64,000 nt of DNA from Luminiphilus sp. (GTDB lineage: Bacteria > Pseudomonadota > Gammaproteobacteria > Pseudomonadales > Halieaceae), in the NCBI GenBank assembly GCA_029242325.1, contig JAQWUD010000016.1:186001-250000 (forward strand). The letters are read 5' to 3'. A model generated the notes under the pieces. It saw only the letters and a program-made list of their open reading frames with translations. It was not told the origin of the DNA and ran no database searches. Position 1 is the first letter of the stretch. The number at the start of each line of letters is the position of its first letter. Shown one piece after another: positions 42,296 to 51,787 of this stretch. The position numbers and the translations under genes are program-made.

Positions 42296-42997
42296 ATGGC
42301 CAGTCGAAAATCTGCCTCCAAAAAGGCACCAGCCAAAAAACAGGCTGGCAAGAAGGCCCGCGCGAAGAAAAAAGCAGTAGCCAAAAAAGCACCCGCCAAA
42401 AAAGCGCCCGCGAAGAAAAAAGCAGTAGCCAAAAAGGCACCCGCCAAAAAAGCGCCCGCAAAGAAAAAAGCAGTAGCCAAAAAGGCACCCGCCAAAAAAG
42501 CGCCCGCAAAGAAAAAAGCAGTAGCCAAAAAGGCACCCGCTAACAAGACCACCGCCAAGCTGGCTCGCGCAGTGGGGGAACTGCAGAAGTTTGACGACTT
42601 CAAACCCTACAAGCCCGGCCGCGGAGAGAGTTACATGAATGATGGGCAAATTGAGCACTTCAGAGCTATTTTGCTCAATTGGCGGGGTGAACTGGTTGAT
42701 GAGGTATCCAGGACGGTATCTCACATGAAAGATGAGGCCGCCAATTTCCCGGATCCCGCAGATCGAGCCACGCAAGAAGAGGAGTTTAGCCTCGAGTTAC
42801 GCACGCGCGATCGCGAGCGCAAGCTCATCAAAAAAATTGACTCTACGTTGGATCGGCTGCAAAACGACGACTACGGGTATTGCGATGCATGCGGCATCGA
42901 AATTGGCGTTCAGCGGCTTGAGGCTAGACCCACCGCCACAATGTGCATAGACTGCAAGACGCTCGCCGAAATCAAGGAGCGTCAGGAGCTGGGTTGA
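42296..42997 (+). CDS. dksA: RNA polymerase-binding factor DksA with Lys/Ala-rich tail
   Basis: DksA binds the RNA polymerase secondary channel and acts with ppGpp in the stringent response. The C-terminal 150 residues are a normal DksA: coiled-coil tip [11 protein letters not shown], and the zinc finger CDACG ... CIDC at the end. The first 85 residues are a low-complexity Lys/Ala/Pro tail of repeated KKAPAKK and KKKAVA units, like histone H1 or AlgP tails. The product is therefore 233 residues against 151 in E. coli. The ATG at 42296 begins the tail, and the reading frame through it is uninterrupted. It precedes gluQ with overlap. Confidence 0.95.
42363..42540 (+). repeat. 48-bp tandem repeats in the dksA tail
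   Basis: About 3.7 copies of a 48-bp unit start at 42363, 42411, 42459 and 42507, differing by only a few bases. Each encodes 16 residues of the Lys/Ala-rich tail. High identity between copies makes unit number variation likely. Confidence 0.93.
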
Positions 42998-43854
42998 ACA
43001 ACAATCCCGTGGTTGAAGAGGACGTTCAGCCATACCGGGGGCGCTTTGCGCCCTCTCCCACTGGCCCCCTGCATGCGGGATCTTTGACTTCCGCCTTGGC
43101 CAGCTTTCTTGATGCACGATCGCTCAAAGGAATATGGCGACTCCGAATCGACGATATTGACCCACCGCGGGCGGCTAAAGGGAGCGTCGAGGCGATCCGT
43201 TCAGCGCTGATTTCCCACGGGCTGATATGGGACGAACCCGTCCTCTACCAATCTTGGGCAAGCGAGTGTTATGAAAGAGCGTTGCGCCAGTTATCTGAGA
43301 AGGGCTGGCTGTTTCGGTGTATCTGCACCCGAACTCACCTGACAGCGCGTGGCACTTGTGGGCAGGCATGCGCAGATCAAAATATCTCCTCCGATTTACC
43401 ACACAGCCTTCGCGTCAAAGTGGATCGGAGGCGGCTCACAGGATTCGAAGACCGTTTTCTTGGCATGCAAACCGCTGCTCGGGCCGACGTCTCTGAGGAT
43501 TTCATCGTAAAGCGCCGTGATGGGCTATACGCCTACCAACTGGCCGCAGCTGTGGATGATGCACAGCCGCATTTCACGCATATCGTACGCGGTGCCGACT
43601 TACTTACCTCTACCCACCGGCAACGTTGGCTTCAGGACCTGTTGGCGCTCGTATCACCATCGTACGGACATGTTCCCTTAGTCTTCGATCGCCAAGGCCA
43701 TAAACTCAGTAAACAAACGGGGGCACCTGCTCTCAACGTACACGCACCCGAAGACAACCTTCGCGCCAGCTTGAACCACCTGGACCAAGTCACCCCACCC
43801 ACGACAGCCCGCACAGTCGCTGAAATCCTCGAGCACGCCATTGCACACTGGTAA
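42994..43854 (+). CDS. gluQ: Glutamyl-Q tRNA(Asp) synthetase
   Basis: GluQ-RS attaches glutamate to queuosine 34 of tRNA-Asp. It resembles the catalytic half of GluRS: HIGH-type motif in [15 protein letters not shown] near residue 14-28, KMSKS-type KLSKQTGAP near 230, and cysteines in [18 protein letters not shown] for zinc. It lacks the anticodon-binding domain, hence only 286 residues. The TTG start at 42994 overlaps the dksA stop and has AGGAG 5 nt upstream. The dksA-gluQ pair is standard in gammaproteobacteria. Confidence 0.93.
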
Positions 43855-43953
43855 TCGCAGTCGAGGCACCATGGGGGCAGCAATGTGTTACCTTTTCACT
43901 CGACCGGTGACATTCTCCGGTAACAACCGGGGACGCCAGCCGCACGAGGCAGC

Positions 43954-45303
43954 ATGAAAATCCATTTGATCGAGACAGACCGCGATCTCAGAGCAGCGCT
44001 TTCACAGCAGCTGATGAATCGTGGTGTCATCGTTGAAGAGGTTGCACAAGACGCAGAACGTGTGGCCGCACGCGCACATTGCGACGGTGACTTGGTTGTG
44101 GTCGGTCACCACACCGCCGCGAGCGAATTAGCTGCACTCGCCAGCGCCATCTGGCCGACGCCCTTGGCTGCGTTACTACCTGTCTTCGACACCTCTCATA
44201 TCGTTGGAGCAGTGAAAGCAGGTGCGGTCGACGTATTTGACCGTTCTGCAGCCTCTGATGTGGTCGCTGAGTGGATTGTGCAATGCTGCTCCACTCAGCA
44301 GACCACAGCAGCCAATCATTCACTGGCAGGCACATTTTTCAGCAATACCTGCTCTGAAATGCAGACTATGCAGCATACGATTGAGCGCATCGCCATCACC
44401 GACTCAACCGTATTAATAGCGGGCGAGACAGGAACAGGCAAGGAACTGGCCGCCCGTCAGATCCACCGCATGGGGGCGCGCGCAGAGCAACCGATGGTCA
44501 CCGTTAACTGCGCTGCAATTCCCGACACTTTGATCGAATCTGAATTATTCGGTTATGAAAAAGGGGCTTTTACTGGCGCCACCAGCAACCGCATCGGACT
44601 GATTGAAGCAGCCGATCGGGGCACGCTGTTTTTGGATGAGATTGGTGAATTACCCCTAGCAGCGCAGGCTCGCTTGCTTCGTTTTATCCAAGAAGGGGAA
44701 ATACGCAGGATCGGCTCGGTAACCAGCAGGAAAGTCGACGTCAGATTAATTTGTGCCACGCATCGTGATCTGGCCAGACTGGCAGCCATTAACGAATTCC
44801 GAAGGGATCTCTTCTACCGCATTGATGTCCTGAGGCTCGATATTCCCCCCTTGAGAGGTCGAGGTCACCACGTCATTGAAATGGCTAATTGGTTTATTGA
44901 AAAGCAAGCCCAGAAGCTGGGACTGCCTGCGAAATCTCTTTCAAACGACAGCATGCAGGCCATGCTGCGACATCGATGGCCGGGCAATGTGCGAGAGCTA
45001 CAGAACGTGATTGAGCGTGCTTTGGTAATGTCGACCGGGGCGACATTGCAAGTCACACTGTCTAGCTCCCAACAGGCTAGCCAACATGACGAGCCCGGCA
45101 TTGATCGCCCTCTGCCGGCGTCACTTAACGAGGATAGTGTCGAGGAGCTGTCGCTGGAGGATTATTTCCAACGATTTGTGCTGGAACATCAAGACGCTAT
45201 GAATGAGACGGAGTTGGCTCATAAATTGGGTATCAGTCGCAAATGCCTCTGGGAGCGCCGCCAGCGCTTTGGTCTTCCGCGCAGAAAGCATAAGACCGCT
45301 TAA
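43954..45303 (+). CDS. Sigma54-dependent activator, CbrB-like, with degenerate receiver
   Basis: An NtrC-type enhancer-binding protein (449 residues). The receiver-like domain spans 1-110. The AAA+ domain has Walker A GETGTGKE near 157 and the sigma54 contact GAFTGA at 204-209. A Fis-type helix-turn-helix lies at the end ([19 protein letters not shown]). The position between gluQ and pcnB is that of cbrB in Pseudomonas, so CbrB orthology is likely. The receiver is altered: Gly51 stands where the phospho-acceptor Asp should be (DLVVVGHH), the acidic pocket reads ETD, and the Lys site reads DRS. No cbrA-like kinase gene lies in the 99-bp gap before it. Activation may thus not need phosphorylation. 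Confidence 0.88.
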
Positions 45304-45327
45304 CCGACCATCTGGAAGAGAGATTTC

Positions 45328-45382
45328 GTAACACGGTGGTGCAAATACGTAACACTCTGAGCCCCTCCCAGCTCCGTAACCC
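45328..45382 (+). promoter_or_regulatory. Three GTAAC repeats, candidate activator sites
   Basis: GTAACAC at 45328-45334, GTAACAC at 45349-45355 and GTAACCC at 45376-45382 lie 47-101 bp before a sigma54 promoter. The first two are 21 bp apart, two helical turns. The CbrB site known in Pseudomonas is TGTTAC-N14-GTAACA, so the half-site matches, though here the copies are direct. Confidence 0.65.
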
Positions 45383-45428
45383 GGTAATAAATTGGACAAC
45401 GCAATGTTTTATATGAACTTTCTCAATG

Positions 45429-45444
45429 TGGCATGTGACCTGCA
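45429..45444 (+). promoter_or_regulatory. Sigma54 (-24/-12) promoter
   Basis: TGGCATGTGACCTGCA fits TGGCACG-N4-TTGCW with the invariant GG and GC at the right distance and two mismatches in the less critical positions. Transcription should start near 45455. Confidence 0.75.
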
Positions 45445-45454
45445 AAGTACTGAC

Positions 45455-45545
45455 CAGAGCCGAAATAACAATAATGGGCCTAATAAAAAAAATGATGTCA
45501 TAACGGACCTGGGTGGGGAAGGCGACTTCCCCATGTTTCTTTTTG
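45455..45545 (+). ncRNA. Predicted CrcZ-like small RNA
   Basis: A transcript of about 90 nt is predicted from the sigma54 promoter to the terminator. It carries two A-rich tracts made of four AAN triplets each: AATAACAATAAT at 45464-45475 and AATAAAAAAAAT at 45482-45493. Such AAN repeats are the CA motifs that bind the distal face of Hfq in the Pseudomonas sRNAs CrcZ, CrcY and CrcX. crcZ lies between cbrB and pcnB in Pseudomonas, as this does. It is much shorter than P. aeruginosa CrcZ (about 400 nt). The overlapping frame at 45392-45634 is not a credible gene. The rest of the gap to pcnB shows no further feature. Confidence 0.68.
45514..45545 (+). terminator. Intrinsic terminator of the predicted sRNA
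   Basis: An 8-bp perfect stem TGGGGAAG / CTTCCCCA with a GCGA (GNRA) tetraloop is followed by a T-rich run (TGTTTCTTTTT). Confidence 0.85.
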
Positions 45546-45630
45546 TTCGTCCCACTTCACCTTCTCCCCCAAATGCCCCCCCAAACGCAATACCTTCTAG
45601 CGCACTGGGTCATTCCCCGGCGACCGCATC

Positions 45631-46902
45631 GTGAGCACCGAGTCATCGAGCCCGCTGTTCCGGGCAAGCGACTTTTCACGAGGAGCGCTGCAAGTTGTAG
45701 AGCGGCTACAACATGAGGGCTTTGATGCTTTCGTCGTAGGCGGCGCAGTGCGGGATCTGCTGCTAGGCAAGCAGCCGAAAGATTTCGACGTAGCGACGTC
45801 TGCCAACCCGGAGCAAATTAAAGACTGCTTTCGTAACGCCCGGATCGTGGGCCGACGCTTTCAAATTGTCCACGTGCGTTCCGGCGGGGAAATTATAGAA
45901 GTGACGACCTTTCGCCGCGGCCATGACGTCAGTCACTCCGGTCAGGATGCCAAGTCGAGCCAATCCGGCCGTCTGTTGAGAGATAACGTTTACGGCACGC
46001 TCGATGAAGACGCGCGGCGACGTGATCTCACGATCAACGCCCTTTACTACGATACCGAGACCCATACCCTGATTGATCAATTAGGGGGTCGCACCGACAT
46101 CGAAGCGGGAATCGTTCGCATCATTGGCGATCCGGCCGATCGCTATCGCGAGGATCCCGTGAGAATGCTTCGAGTCATCAGGTTCGGTGCACGCCTTCAA
46201 TTCAAATTGGAATCGAAAACAGAGACCGCGATCTCAGAGACTCGGTCCTTGCTGCGGGATATTCCATCGGCGCGGTTGTTTGACGAATGGCTGAAACTGT
46301 TCATGAATGGATTTTCAGCCCCCACTTTTGCACTGCTGAGAGCGCATGAGGTGCTTATCCCTCTCATGGGTAATGGGGTCTGCGACGCGCTGATCAGAAC
46401 TTCCGCTGAGCACCTACAATCACTTGCGCTTCGCAATACCGATCAGCGGGTCGCAGATGGCCGTCCCGTGACACCCGCGTTTTTGCTCGCGGCGCTGTAT
46501 TGGCCTGCAACAGAGCACCGAGCCTCGGCTCTTGCGGAAGAAGGGGAACCCACTATTCAAGCGATGCACAGCTCGGGCCAGCAGATCGCGCATGATGTCT
46601 GTCAACACCTGGCTATCCCCAAGCGATTTTCTCTCGCCATGCGTGATATCTGGGATCTTCAGCCTCGGCTGGAGCGCAGGCAACCGAAGAAAGTAAAAGA
46701 TTTGCTAGCGCATCGCTGGTTTCGCGCGGCCTTCGACCTGCGTTTATTGCGGGAGGAGACTGAAGCGTTGGGTAGCGACTGCAGCGCATTCTGGACCCTT
46801 CAACAACAGCAGTTTCCAGAGCTGGTGGGTAGCGCAAGAAGCCGGCACGATGATCATCGCAAAGGCCGATCACGGCCACAACGCAGGAACCAGAGCAAAT
46901 GA
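45631..46902 (+). CDS. pcnB: Poly(A) polymerase I
   Basis: PcnB adds 3' poly(A) tails that speed RNA decay. The nucleotidyltransferase motif is GGAVRDLLLGKQPKDFDVAT near residue 37-57, and RRRDLTINALYYD follows near 125. The C-terminus is basic (RSRPQRRNQSK), typical of the enzyme and distinct from CCA-adding enzymes. Length 423. The start is GTG at 45631. The stop overlaps folK by 4 nt, so the pcnB-folK pair is coupled as in E. coli and Pseudomonas. Confidence 0.95.
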   Translation: MSTESSSPLFRASDFSRGALQVVERLQHEGFDAFVVGGAVRDLLLGKQPKDFDVATSANPEQIKDCFRNARIVGRRFQIVHVRSGGEIIEVTTFRRGHDVSHSGQDAKSSQSGRLLRDNVYGTLDEDARRRDLTINALYYDTETHTLIDQLGGRTDIEAGIVRIIGDPADRYREDPVRMLRVIRFGARLQFKLESKTETAISETRSLLRDIPSARLFDEWLKLFMNGFSAPTFALLRAHEVLIPLMGNGVCDALIRTSAEHLQSLALRNTDQRVADGRPVTPAFLLAALYWPATEHRASALAEEGEPTIQAMHSSGQQIAHDVCQHLAIPKRFSLAMRDIWDLQPRLERRQPKKVKDLLAHRWFRAAFDLRLLREETEALGSDCSAFWTLQQQQFPELVGSARSRHDDHRKGRSRPQRRNQSK

Positions 46903-48939: not shown

Positions 48940-49794
48940 ATGAACGTTGCGTCGGATATCGGCCTCCTCCATGAATTCATAGCCTCTCTCAGAGGGCGGG
49001 TCGCTCGGATCGCTTTTGTGCCTACTATGGGCAATCTCCACAACGGCCATCTTGCGCTCGTAAATCAAGCACTCGAAACCGCGGATGCCGTGATCGTCTC
49101 TATCTTTGTAAATCCGACACAATTCGCGGCACACGAAGACCTCGATACCTACCCTCGTACCCTCGAGGCTGATCTCACTGCGCTGGAAAGCGCAGGCGTA
49201 GACCTCGTTTTCACCCCTACCGCGAGCGAAATCTATCCGGAAGGGGGCGAGGTACATACCAAGATCCATGTCCCGAAATTGGGTGACGAACTCTGCGGGA
49301 AAGATCGTCCCGGACACTTTGACGGCGTCTGTACCGTGATCTACAGATTATTCCAAATAATCACGCCCGATCTGGCCATATTCGGCGAGAAGGATCTGCA
49401 GCAGCTTTTGATTCTCGAAAAAATGGTGAGCGATCTGAGCTTGCCGGTTGAGATCCAGAGTGGCGCCACGCACCGCGCAGAAGATGGGCTTGCTCTCAGT
49501 TCACGAAACCAATACCTCTCTCAATCAGAGAGAGCGATTGCCCCAACGCTCTGGCAGACACTGCAGCAATGCGTCAGAGCGATTAGCGAACCAACAGCTG
49601 AACCCTTTCAATCAGCGCAGCTATCTGCCTGCCGGTCACTCGAGGAAGCGGGCTTTACTGTCGATTATCTGGAACTGCGGACACTTTCGGCGCTGAGCCA
49701 GACTGATTCATTGATAGAAGATTGTGCGCTCTTCGCTGCAGCGCGGCTCGGCACAACTCGGCTCATCGACAACATACAAATTCGACGCAACTAA
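48940..49794 (+). CDS. panC: Pantothenate synthetase
   Basis: PanC joins pantoate and beta-alanine with ATP. The class I nucleotidyltransferase motif is FVPTMGNLHNGHLALV near residue 26, and IFVNPTQFAAHEDLDTYPRT, FGEKDLQQL and LSSRNQYLS follow. Length 284 (E. coli 283). No panD is visible in the window. Its stop overlaps the convergent symporter gene by 4 bp. Confidence 0.97.
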   Translation: MNVASDIGLLHEFIASLRGRVARIAFVPTMGNLHNGHLALVNQALETADAVIVSIFVNPTQFAAHEDLDTYPRTLEADLTALESAGVDLVFTPTASEIYPEGGEVHTKIHVPKLGDELCGKDRPGHFDGVCTVIYRLFQIITPDLAIFGEKDLQQLLILEKMVSDLSLPVEIQSGATHRAEDGLALSSRNQYLSQSERAIAPTLWQTLQQCVRAISEPTAEPFQSAQLSACRSLEEAGFTVDYLELRTLSALSQTDSLIEDCALFAAARLGTTRLIDNIQIRRN

Positions 49795-51515
49795 ATTGCT
49801 CGGGGGGATACCGGCACACGGATGTCGTCGACCAATTCCCTCACAGAGTCGGGTGGCGGTGATGTAATGCGAGTGACACCCAGCGCCACGGCAAAATTCA
49901 CCAGCGCGCCCACGACACCAAAACCATTGGGCTCGATACCCAGAAACCAATTCGGTGGCAGGTCGCCCAAGAAACTGGTGCCAGGGATGAACATGATCCC
50001 CTTGTGCTGAAAAACGTACGCCAGCGTCACGCCGATACCGGCCAGCATCCCCAGAATCGCCCCTTCCCGCGTCACCCGCTTGGAAAAAATCCCAAGCAAC
50101 AACGCGGGAAACAATGAGGCCGCGGCGAGCCCAAAGGCCAATGCCACCGTCCCCGCTGCAAAGCCGGGAGGGTTGAGGCCCAGATAGCCGGCACCAAGCA
50201 CTGCCGCGGCCATCGCGAGCCGCGAGGCCATCAGCTCCTGACGCTCCGAGATAGCGGGCATGAATGTGCGTTTGAGCAAATCATGGGAGATCGCAGAAGA
50301 GATAGCCAGTAACAAGCCTGCGGCTGTGGAAAGTGCGGCCGCAAGACCACCCGCTGCTACCAATGCGATCACCCAATTGGGCAGATTTGCAATTTCTGGG
50401 TTAGCCAGCACAAGAATGTCATTGTCCAGCGTTACCAGTTCATTGGTAACGGGATCCGCTGAGTATTGAATCAGTCCATCAGCATTTTTGTCTTCAATAC
50501 CCAAGAGGCCGGTCTGCTCCCAGTTTTTGAACCATGCCGGCCGCTCATTAATGGCAAGATGTTGTCCCGGCTCGGGCTGCAAGGTTTGAATGATGTTAAG
50601 CCGCGCCATCGCCGCCACTGCTGGCGCCGTGGTGTAGAGAATGGCAATGAACACCAGCGCCCAGCCAGCTGATGTTCTGGCAGCACGAACGGTTGGCACC
50701 GTAAAAAATCGGATAATGACGTGAGGCAAACCCGCTGTGCCAATCATGAGTGAGGCGGTAAAAGCAGCCATATTGAGCGTGCTGCCTCTTACCGATGTTG
50801 TGTATTCCTGAAAACCGAGATCCAACAGTATTTGATCAAGTTTGTGCAGTAGATAAGTGCCGTCGGCCAACGTGGAACCTAATCCCAGCTGAGGAATGGG
50901 CTGGCCAGTAAGCTGCAAGCTGATAAAAATAGCCGGTACGGTGTAGGCGAAGATCAGCACACAAAACTGTGCAATCTGTGTGTAGGTAATCCCCTTCATA
51001 CCGCCTAGAACAGCATAGAAAAATACGATCACCATGCCCGACAGCAAGCCGGTCTCGTAATCGGTCTCGAGAAACCGTGAGAAGGCAACGCCAATCCCCT
51101 TCATTTGCCCAATCACATAAGTCACTGAACAGATAATCAGGCAGATCACCGCCACGACGCGGGCCGCACTAGAGTAGTAACGATCTCCAATAAATTCGGG
51201 CACCGTGAACTTGCCATATTTTCGGAGGTAGGGTGCGATCAGCATAGCCAGTATCACGTACCCCCCTGTCCAACCCATGAGAAAGACAGAGCCGCCATAC
51301 CCGTTGTATGAGAGGCCGATCAGACCCGCCATGGAGATAAAGGATGCCGCGGACATCCAGTCGGCAGCCGTCGCCATCCCGTTTGCGACAGGGTGGATAC
51401 CCCCCCCCGCCACATAGAACTCCTGCGTGGAGCCTGCGCGCGCGCGAATCGCGATGATAATGTAGAGGGCAAAGGAGGCACCCACCACCCAATAGGTGGT
51501 CTCGGTGAGACTCAT
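49791..51515 (-). CDS. Sodium:solute symporter, acetate permease-like
   Basis: An SSS-family cation symporter of 574 residues with about 13-14 membrane segments, of the type paired with a DUF4212 subunit and resembling acetate/short-chain carboxylate permeases. AADWMSAASFISMAGLIG near residue 51 is a family feature. A hydrophilic insert of about 60 residues lies in the middle. The ATG at 51515 overlaps the DUF4212 stop (ATGA); longer open frame upstream is not conserved. A G9 tract lies in codons 36-39. Acetate is inferred from similarity and the divergent acs gene. Confidence 0.87.
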   Translation of the reverse strand: MSLTETTYWVVGASFALYIIIAIRARAGSTQEFYVAGGGIHPVANGMATAADWMSAASFISMAGLIGLSYNGYGGSVFLMGWTGGYVILAMLIAPYLRKYGKFTVPEFIGDRYYSSAARVVAVICLIICSVTYVIGQMKGIGVAFSRFLETDYETGLLSGMVIVFFYAVLGGMKGITYTQIAQFCVLIFAYTVPAIFISLQLTGQPIPQLGLGSTLADGTYLLHKLDQILLDLGFQEYTTSVRGSTLNMAAFTASLMIGTAGLPHVIIRFFTVPTVRAARTSAGWALVFIAILYTTAPAVAAMARLNIIQTLQPEPGQHLAINERPAWFKNWEQTGLLGIEDKNADGLIQYSADPVTNELVTLDNDILVLANPEIANLPNWVIALVAAGGLAAALSTAAGLLLAISSAISHDLLKRTFMPAISERQELMASRLAMAAAVLGAGYLGLNPPGFAAGTVALAFGLAAASLFPALLLGIFSKRVTREGAILGMLAGIGVTLAYVFQHKGIMFIPGTSFLGDLPPNWFLGIEPNGFGVVGALVNFAVALGVTRITSPPPDSVRELVDDIRVPVSPRAI

Positions 51516-51787
51516 TCGTCTGGCTCCTCGAGACCAAGGCGCTCTTCCAGTCGCGCCATAACGCGTGCGTAAGCGAAGATCAGAACGATGAACGTGTAGA
51601 TCGCGCCCTGTTGCGCGAACCAAAAACCCAGCTTGAAACCACCCATTTGAATCTGGTTGAGCGGCTCTACCCACAACACACCGCATCCCAGGCTCACCGC
51701 AAACCAAATAGTTCCGAAAATGGCCATCCAGCGGAGATTCTCTCGCCAGTAAATACGGCGACGAGCGTCAGACTGCGGTTGTTCCAT
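51512..51787 (-). CDS. DUF4212 small membrane subunit
   Basis: A 91-residue protein with two membrane segments (IFGTIWFAVSLGCGVLWV and AQQGAIYTFIVLIFAYAR), preceded by RRRIYWRENLRWM. It matches the DUF4212 family, which accompanies SSS-type symporters as a small partner. An in-frame ATG at 51826 would add 13 residues, and neither start has a convincing ribosome binding site. It overlaps the symporter gene by 4 nt. Confidence 0.85.
   Translation of the reverse strand: MEQPQSDARRRIYWRENLRWMAIFGTIWFAVSLGCGVLWVEPLNQIQMGGFKLGFWFAQQGAIYTFIVLIFAYARVMARLEERLGLEEPDE

Follow-up and report, generated by a model that had tools for sequence, protein, structure and literature searches.

A predicted 90-nt CrcZ-like small RNA gene beside cbrB in Luminiphilus, a genus in which CbrA was not found

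Does the short gap between a sigma54 activator gene and pcnB in Luminiphilus sp. (Halieaceae) hold a counterpart of crcZ, and what would control such an RNA in a genus in which no CbrA was found? In the published model, CbrB and a sigma54 promoter make the small RNA CrcZ, which draws Hfq away from A-rich ribosome-binding sites by acting as a decoy (PMC4063720, PMC8871633, PMC6296734, PMC6292655). A 2022 review describes CbrAB as unique to Pseudomonadaceae on the grounds of cbrA-cbrB-crcZ synteny and gives Pseudomonas and Azotobacter as the sole genera with that described arrangement (PMC8871633), and a 2018 paper likewise terms CbrAB unique to this family (PMC6296734). Judging from sequence comparisons, we consider it probable (roughly 80%) that positions 45455-45544 of the window, by which we mean the whole 64-kb stretch of DNA analyzed here, are a small RNA gene, namely the Luminiphilus counterpart of crcZ, with a product that would serve as an Hfq decoy. 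Transcription, binding, titration and targets we infer, and with them Hfq/Crc carbon catabolite control in Luminiphilus.

The gene order at this locus is dksA, gluQRS, cbrB, the gap, pcnB, folK, a deoxynucleoside-kinase-like gene, panB and panC, with the neighboring genes named by eye and gluQRS and pcnB confirmed by profile match. The GTAAC repeats, the -24/-12 element, the two AAN tracts and the terminator that a first-pass annotation of the sequence had reported were all found where it had placed them. The features, in coordinates of the window, are:

42943-43854, plus strand: gluQRS (TIGR03838/NF004314 above cut-off), separated from cbrB by about 100 nt
43887-43924, plus strand: half-sites GTTAC (43887) and GTAAC (43920) upstream of cbrB, from sequence
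43954-45303, plus strand: cbrB orthologue, a sigma54 activator, from similar proteins across the family and synteny
45304-45630: gap between cbrB and pcnB, 327 nt
45328-45332, plus strand: putative CbrB half-site GTAAC, R type, conserved, from sequence and relatives
45349-45353, plus strand: second putative CbrB half-site GTAAC, R type, 21 nt past the first and likewise conserved, from sequence and relatives
45376-45380, plus strand: third GTAAC, from sequence, absent at that position in the 18 closest relatives
45429-45444, plus strand: sigma54 -24/-12 element TGGCATGTGACCTGCA, of the form GG-N10-GC, from sequence, shuffles and relatives
45455-45544, plus strand: predicted CrcZ-like small RNA of about 90 nt, the conservation core (RF01675 below gathering)
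45459-45479, plus strand: weak GCC/GGC stem with CA tract 1 in its loop, from the predicted fold
45464-45475, plus strand: CA tract 1, (AAN)4, AATAACAATAAT, putative Hfq distal-face site
45482-45493, plus strand: CA tract 2, (AAN)4, AATAAAAAAAAT, putative Hfq distal-face site
45507-45512, plus strand: ACCTGG element, invariant in module alignment A1
45514-45544, plus strand: intrinsic terminator with an 8-bp hairpin, GCGA loop and T-run, from sequence and fold
45631-46902, plus strand: pcnB (TIGR01942 above cut-off)

The terminator hairpin reads TGGGGAAG-GCGA-CTTCCCCA (45514-45533) and is followed by the T-run TTTCTTTTT (45536-45544), the end of which lies 86 nt before the start of pcnB on the same strand. 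The predicted transcript start, near 45455, is 12 nt past the C of the -12 GC.

To see how readily such a layout arises by chance, we shuffled the 327-nt gap 20,000 times with its dinucleotides preserved. None of these shuffles (0 of 20,000) contained the full set of features in order. Of the single features, three or more GTAAC arose in 76 shuffles; the sigma54 pattern was matched in 47, a pair of GTAAC with a spacing of 20-22 nt was seen in 17, and 3 had two (AAN)3AA tracts. The strict sigma54 pattern TGGCAYGN4YTGCW has a single match in the 64-kb window on both strands, which is the one in this gap; the looser TGGCAY-N6-TGC matches the gap and three minus-strand places. The exact double site GTAACA-N15-GTAACA occurs once in the whole genome of this organism, again in this gap. 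Double sites with one mismatch are present at seven other places in the genome, no more than expected by chance, and a CbrB regulon built on them was rejected because the reversed control pattern gives more matches (17 versus 8). CA-type tracts elsewhere in the window were also rejected as targets, as the two other plus-strand (AAN)3AA matches fall within long ORFs. A minus-strand (AAN)3AA match at 45547 overlaps the T-run. In a pattern scan of named genomes, records of Prevotella, Corynebacterium, Oscillospiraceae and Lysobacterales also matched (80 of 110 stretches listed).

A DNA search with the gap found it in 51 of 57 Luminiphilus genomes, including 17 of the 17 good ones, and the weaker matches contract to about 45455-45545 (query positions 152-242), which is the predicted transcript. 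A contig spans cbrB to pcnB in 50 Luminiphilus genomes, and each of these 50 loci has the ACCTGG hairpin and the sigma54 element together with two or more AANAANAA tracts and a pair of half-sites spaced 20-24 nt; a triple site that begins with GTTAC is found at one of the 50. Outside this set, G020 and G047 show the RNA and pcnB with no cbrB in the stretch, and neither the RNA nor a CbrB-level match was found in G013, G034, G039, G043 and G051, which are 54-83% complete. The other genera of Halieaceae provided 24 loci with a complete gap from 23 genomes (L058 and L075 belong to one genome). The sigma54 element, the AAN tracts and the hairpin were each found at 24 of these 24 loci, at least two half-sites at 23 and the spaced pair at 20. 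The expectation of the first-pass annotation that the -24/-12 element and the AAN tracts would be conserved in relatives was thus borne out both within the genus (50/50) and in the rest of the family (24/24). Two further loci, L073 and L077, were excluded from the 24-locus count because the pcnB match is missing in the stretch. Every element is present in L077, and L073 has the half-sites, the AAN tracts and ACCTGG with no sigma54 match.

Among 18 close relatives, mean identity to the window is 0.38 ahead of the sites and 0.86 across them (45328-45354), 0.67 from the sites to the -24 position, 0.83 at -24/-12, 0.16 from -12 to +1, 0.89 in the transcript and 0.34 in the DNA downstream; it reaches 98.4% at 45507-45520. 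The flanking end of cbrB stands at 0.70 and the first 20 codons of pcnB at 0.47. Conservation drops at the ends of the predicted transcript. Three GTAAC repeats had been put forward originally, and that claim stands for the first two, which precede the sigma54 element by 100-102 and 79-81 nt in 18 of 18 close relatives, but not for the third (45376), as 0 of the 18 have GTAAC at that position. The GNRA cap ascribed to the terminator fared similarly: a GNRA loop is frequent in Luminiphilus but the loop is variable elsewhere by eye. Between the sites and the promoter, an IHF-like sequence with at most one mismatch occurs at 22 of 50 Luminiphilus and 15 of 24 other Halieaceae loci, compared with 7% of shuffled DNA; with two mismatches allowed, the counts are 46/50 and 22/24, compared with 46% of shuffled DNA.

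In the predicted fold of the RNA, a 3-bp GCC/GGC stem carries tract 1 in its loop and tract 2 is open, followed by ACCTGG and the terminator, with a distance from start to hairpin end of 76-79 nt in Luminiphilus. The stem of the CA loop is often longer, and of other sequence, in other genera. When the partner arms were shuffled among 23 sequences of other genera, the observed complementarity was reached in 0 of 2000 trials. The same procedure on 39 Luminiphilus sequences had shuffled partners doing equally well (1924 of 2000), and there is no stem signal within the genus because the arms barely vary. The terminator helix has 98.9% of cells paired (26 sequences) with little covariation, which is uninformative here because the terminator is too conserved. 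As a whole, the fold has no clear advantage in stability over shuffled sequences (z -1.06, with 27 of 200 folding as well).

All 26 modules in alignment A1 share the ACCTGG element unchanged, and most of it is unpaired in the centroid fold. It abuts the terminator hairpin, and no part of the RNA is more constant, which also applies to related modules outside Pseudomonas-type loci. CsrA/RsmA binding through the GGA of GGACCTGG was considered and rejected, because this GGA is not kept in second modules and other families, which read GAGACCTGG or AAAGACCTGG. A second module (module B) lies further downstream at 17 of the 24 other Halieaceae loci, from 16 genomes. It consists of AAN tracts plus, mostly, an GACCTGGATGGGGAA-type hairpin and is nearly always without a recognized promoter of its own. 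The first hairpin in these two-module loci has a poor T-run, and read-through may therefore yield a longer RNA there. The loci with module B are L058/L075, L064, L068-L072, L074, L076, L078-L081 and L097-L099. No second RNA module was found in Luminiphilus.

How closely does this RNA resemble CrcZ itself? Both share the place between cbrB and pcnB, GTTAC/GTAAC half-sites, a sigma54 promoter and a terminal hairpin, and the Rfam model of CrcZ contains AAN tracts, one of them in a hairpin loop, as in the window RNA. Compared with CrcZ of Pseudomonas, the window RNA is 90 nt long, has two AAN tracts and no central domain, and carries the additional ACCTGG; the CrcZ of P. aeruginosa is described with six A-rich stretches in place of these two tracts (PMC4063720). 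It also differs in falling below the Rfam gathering cut-off and in belonging to a genus in which no CbrA was found. RF01675 (CrcZ) is the best Rfam match by E-value in the surrounding kilobase, at 14.5 bits (E 0.19) against a gathering cut-off of 95 bits, and matches at or above gathering were found in 0 of 140 Halieaceae genomes; weak matches to this model also occur in 4 of 14 unrelated control genomes. Because it scores below the cut-off, we class the window RNA as a CrcZ-like variant and not as a member of RF01675. Of the properties that characterize CrcZ, the locus has the cbrB-pcnB location, a sigma54 promoter with upstream CbrB half-sites as judged by sequence (two conserved R-type sites), several CA motifs in the form of two (AAN)4 tracts, and a genome that encodes Hfq and Crc; two-component control by CbrA and CbrB was not found. 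The identification as a CrcZ-type RNA made at the outset agrees with the synteny, the promoter layout and the partners CbrB, Hfq, a Crc-type protein and RpoN, and a CrcZ-like identity appears well supported by comparison. That it is a shortened counterpart also holds, in view of its size (about 90 nt versus 390-405 nt at four Pseudomonas-type loci) and of the second module carried by 17 of 24 other Halieaceae loci.

Related decoys provide a further comparison. CrcY (P. putida and Azotobacter) and CrcX (P. syringae) are described as Hfq/Crc decoys, and crcY is driven by CbrB and sigma54, as predicted for the window RNA (PMC8871633, PMC6292655). The crcY genes of P. putida and A. vinelandii lie elsewhere in the genome, whereas the window RNA is linked to cbrB (PMC6292655). 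The half-site form, IHF and GG-N10-GC described for P. putida are as at the window promoter (PMC6296734).

Beyond the family, a covariance model of the module was run on 390 genomes of the order and matched 89 at E 0.1 per genome, 75 of them also at E 0.01 (hand count). Among 369 genomes drawn from the class, the model found the organism's own genome and one weak match at E 0.01; this match (L273, E 0.007, outside the order) was rejected as being at chance level for 369 genomes. We inspected 32 locus ids in other families, corresponding to 31 places (L122 and L254 are identical). The gap is flanked by cbrB and pcnB at 26 of these loci, from 12 families, and the full layout (a sigma54 element with two or more each of half-sites and AAN tracts) is present at 24 of the 26, from 10 families, shares that are not order-wide frequencies because the loci were chosen by model match. 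The exceptions are L255, with no sigma54 match, and L259, with no second AAN tract. The six ids with no cbrB/pcnB pair are L122, L251, L254, L260, L263 and L264, the last of which was rejected as an RNA locus, having neither a sigma54 element nor an AAN tract. Four loci of one family (L245-L248) have the full layout and no ACCTGG; we term them Pseudomonas-type because they score 317-334 bits with the Rfam CrcZ model, and the RNA of such loci is 390-405 nt. None of eleven other loci scored with this model reaches gathering. L252, L256 and L257 have two copies of a sigma54 promoter plus RNA in one gap, and L251 and L254 hold promoter-plus-RNA units with no adjoining cbrB or pcnB; both arrangements are reminiscent of the CrcY/CrcX paralogues. 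L251 also has no ACCTGG.

We identified the window CbrB as an orthologue by synteny and full-length similarity. Its AAA+ domain (GAFTGA) and HTH are intact in conserved columns. The receiver is degenerate and not of the phosphorylatable kind, with Gly at the phospho-Asp position (residue 51) and no Pfam Response_reg match at E 0.001. A predicted structure of moderate confidence (mean pLDDT 73, pTM 0.48) retains the alternating strands and helices of a receiver, and the best 50 matches listed from a structure search are sigma54 activators or their relatives. After partial and duplicate proteins were excluded, the phospho-Asp column of 48 Luminiphilus rows reads Gly in 19 (the window included), Asp in 16 and Glu in 13, so that the residue is replaced in 32 of 48; the Gly group has also lost the active-site Lys and Thr. 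The phospho-Asp is kept in 23 of 23 rows from other Halieaceae genera. CbrB of Pseudomonas has the same receiver-AAA+-HTH layout and an adjoining RNA with half-sites, but the window CbrB lacks the phospho-Asp and its partner kinase was not found. A Glu at the receiver phospho position (D54E) is described as phosphomimetic, rendering NmpR active (PMC6211767). This is the same Asp-to-Glu change as in one Luminiphilus CbrB group; the NmpR change was experimental, whereas the one in Luminiphilus is natural and lies in an activator beside a predicted sRNA gene.

Where gluQRS is visible, loci of other genera have an ORF of 996-1130 aa between gluQRS and cbrB, except L067 and L073, and all Luminiphilus loci have a gluQRS match ending 103-148 nt before cbrB, with no cbrA ORF between. 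One such ORF contains PAS, HisKA and HATPase domains and an N-terminal half with no Pfam match, which, judging from its length, is probably the transporter half of CbrA. A search of the family with this protein gave near-full-length matches in 66 of 83 non-Luminiphilus Halieaceae genomes and partial matches of at least 44% identity in a further 10 (both hand counts), with no such match in the remaining seven (G062-G064, G072, G097, G117, G119). Among the 57 Luminiphilus genomes, many of which are incomplete, no match exceeded 34% identity or 137 bits; weak matches (E 1e-30), to transporter-kinase or other histidine kinases, were found in 12 of the 57. G062-G064 are without a CbrB-level match too. 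G097, however, has cbrB (L073): with no CbrA match in this genome, the phospho-Asp is changed to Asn and no pcnB match lies downstream. L073 is possibly an independent loss of CbrA outside Luminiphilus, and its Asp-to-Asn change hints that kinase loss and Asp loss go together. L077 has a CbrA-size ORF and keeps the phospho-Asp. In G068-G071 (genus g7 of the family, e.g., L067) the CbrA match is limited to the kinase half, with frames of 394-404 aa; these genomes may represent an intermediate on the way to CbrA loss.

The GTTAC/GTAAC pair before cbrB in the window is found at similar positions in the closest relatives. Of the Luminiphilus rows listed, 43 of 43 have at least two such half-sites in the region of the cbrB start, and 18 of 24 other-genus loci have at least one near cbrB, both counts being without a chance control. 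These half-sites suggest autoregulation by CbrB, which, if present, would not be limited to the genus without CbrA.

The proteins with which the RNA would act are encoded in the same genome. Hfq is present, with Tyr25 by hand count, and a change of this residue is described to leave the Hfq of P. aeruginosa with a defect in binding CrcZ (PMC4063720). RpoN is encoded in this genome and in 49 of 57 Luminiphilus genomes, and was not found in 8 of the 57, two of which are among the 17 good ones. P. aeruginosa Crc has two matches among the proteins of the genome. The ExoIII catalytic residues are kept in one; in the other (G000:C49), which is encoded between pyrE and rph, they are lost. In Pseudomonas, too, pyrE and rph are neighbors of crc. 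The best PDB match of the dead Crc-type protein is Crc (189 bits, versus 125 for an entry named as an exodeoxyribonuclease). The ORF at L104 is ExoIII-like with its catalytic residues replaced (Glu to Asp, Asp151 to Gly, Asn153 to Gly, Asp to Arg), and among the loci fetched L299, L301 and L303 also have replaced residues. The view that this genome has no Crc was rejected, being refuted by the second, catalytically dead paralogue that matches Crc best. Most of the 40 genomes tested that lie outside the Pseudomonas-type family have two Crc matches.

If the locus works as a counterpart of crcZ, CbrB would bind at the two GTAAC half-sites, which lie 76-101 nt ahead of the -24/-12 element, IHF would probably bend the DNA between the half-sites and the promoter, and sigma54 polymerase would start near 45455 and stop at the hairpin. 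Because no CbrA was found and the usual Asp is gone, the RNA level would probably depend on how much CbrB there is, through its putative autoregulatory sites, or on CbrB acting without phosphorylation, and not on a two-component signal. Upstream read-through is described as an additional supply of processed CrcZ in Azotobacter and P. putida (PMC6292655), and it could supply RNA at the window locus too. Among the loci examined, the window RNA appears to hold the parts of a decoy in their smallest form; with two Hfq sites compared with six A-rich stretches, titration would therefore need many RNA copies. A fuller account is tentative, and we would put it at somewhat short of even odds. It holds that CbrA was lost in Luminiphilus and that the CbrB receiver became a pseudo-receiver, with an Asp-to-Glu change in one group that could mimic phosphorylation. 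CbrB would then be a phosphorylation-independent sigma54 activator with a level set by its own sites, the single exact tandem site in the window's genome would be that of the 90-nt Hfq decoy, and the invariant ACCUGG would provide a second RNA function.

Some of the evidence can be read differently. Signaling may survive, with another kinase phosphorylating or binding CbrB in place of CbrA; the Asp kept in 16 of 48 Luminiphilus rows and the transporter-kinase or other histidine kinases weakly matching CbrA in 12 of 57 genomes would fit, but the Gly or Glu in the other 32 rows, including that of the window, and the loss of the active-site Lys and Thr in the Gly group make this somewhat unlikely. 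We consider it unlikely, to a slightly greater degree, that the RNA is a base-pairing, Hfq-dependent sRNA with ACCUGG as its seed and AAN tracts that merely load Hfq. Such a seed would account for an element that never varies among the 26 aligned modules, is mostly free of pairing in the centroid fold and occurs at 19 of the 26 cbrB-pcnB loci of other families, a count biased by a search model that holds the element. However, ACCTGG is missing from the four Pseudomonas-type loci and is therefore not required for CrcZ-type work, its position against the hairpin may reflect a role in termination or stability, and at least two AAN tracts are retained at 50 of 50 Luminiphilus loci.

That the sigma54 promoter drives the pcnB mRNA, with the AAN tracts and hairpin attenuating in cis and no free sRNA, is improbable. 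pcnB does begin on the same strand 86 nt past the T-run, and other families show the cbrB-RNA-pcnB order as well. Yet the DNA from the hairpin to pcnB is 34% identical among close relatives compared with 89% for the RNA, Luminiphilus gaps, taken up to where the pcnB match begins, range from 297 to 581 nt, and L251 and L254 have promoter and RNA with no adjoining cbrB or pcnB. Least credible of all is a decaying remnant of a system that went out of use in Luminiphilus after the loss of CbrA. Its appeal lies in the CbrA that was not found, the changed receiver, the missing second RNA module, a GTTAC-first triple site at just 1 of 50 loci, and L073, which is also without CbrA and has no recognizable sigma54 element. 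A remnant would hardly be conserved better than the adjoining ends of both protein genes, with every element kept in 50 of 50 genomes beside a CbrB with intact AAA+ and HTH.

A CrcZ-like decoy in Luminiphilus would extend the known range of this regulation. Halieaceae are described as abundant in coastal seawater (PMC10100682). With the cbrB-pcnB gap in 12 further families, 10 of which (one Pseudomonas-type) have the full layout, in addition to the marine Halieaceae, Hfq/Crc catabolite control may therefore be far more widespread than thought. CrcZ together with Marinobacter was not found in the open-access literature, with subscription papers mostly outside this search; three open-access papers mention CrcZ along with Pseudomonadales, and among the open-access matches listed there were none with CrcZ beside marine genus or family names or with CbrB beside Halieaceae-type names. 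New in this analysis are an RNA seemingly reduced to two putative Hfq sites and a conserved ACCUGG element, and a CbrA that was not found in any of the 57 Luminiphilus genomes searched, with the CbrB phospho-Asp changed in 32 of 48 rows. The first-pass annotation had not anticipated the missing CbrA, the changed CbrB receiver or the conserved ACCUGG. A 2025 review describes the activation of pseudo-receivers as a mystery (PMC12632262). The Luminiphilus CbrB proteins offer natural cases of a sigma54 activator without its kinase, and the RNA may be so near the minimum for the job that the number of Hfq sites needed becomes directly testable. Symporters are typical Crc targets, and one of the VC_2705 family of sodium/solute symporters is encoded directly behind panC in this window, on the minus strand at 49791-51707.
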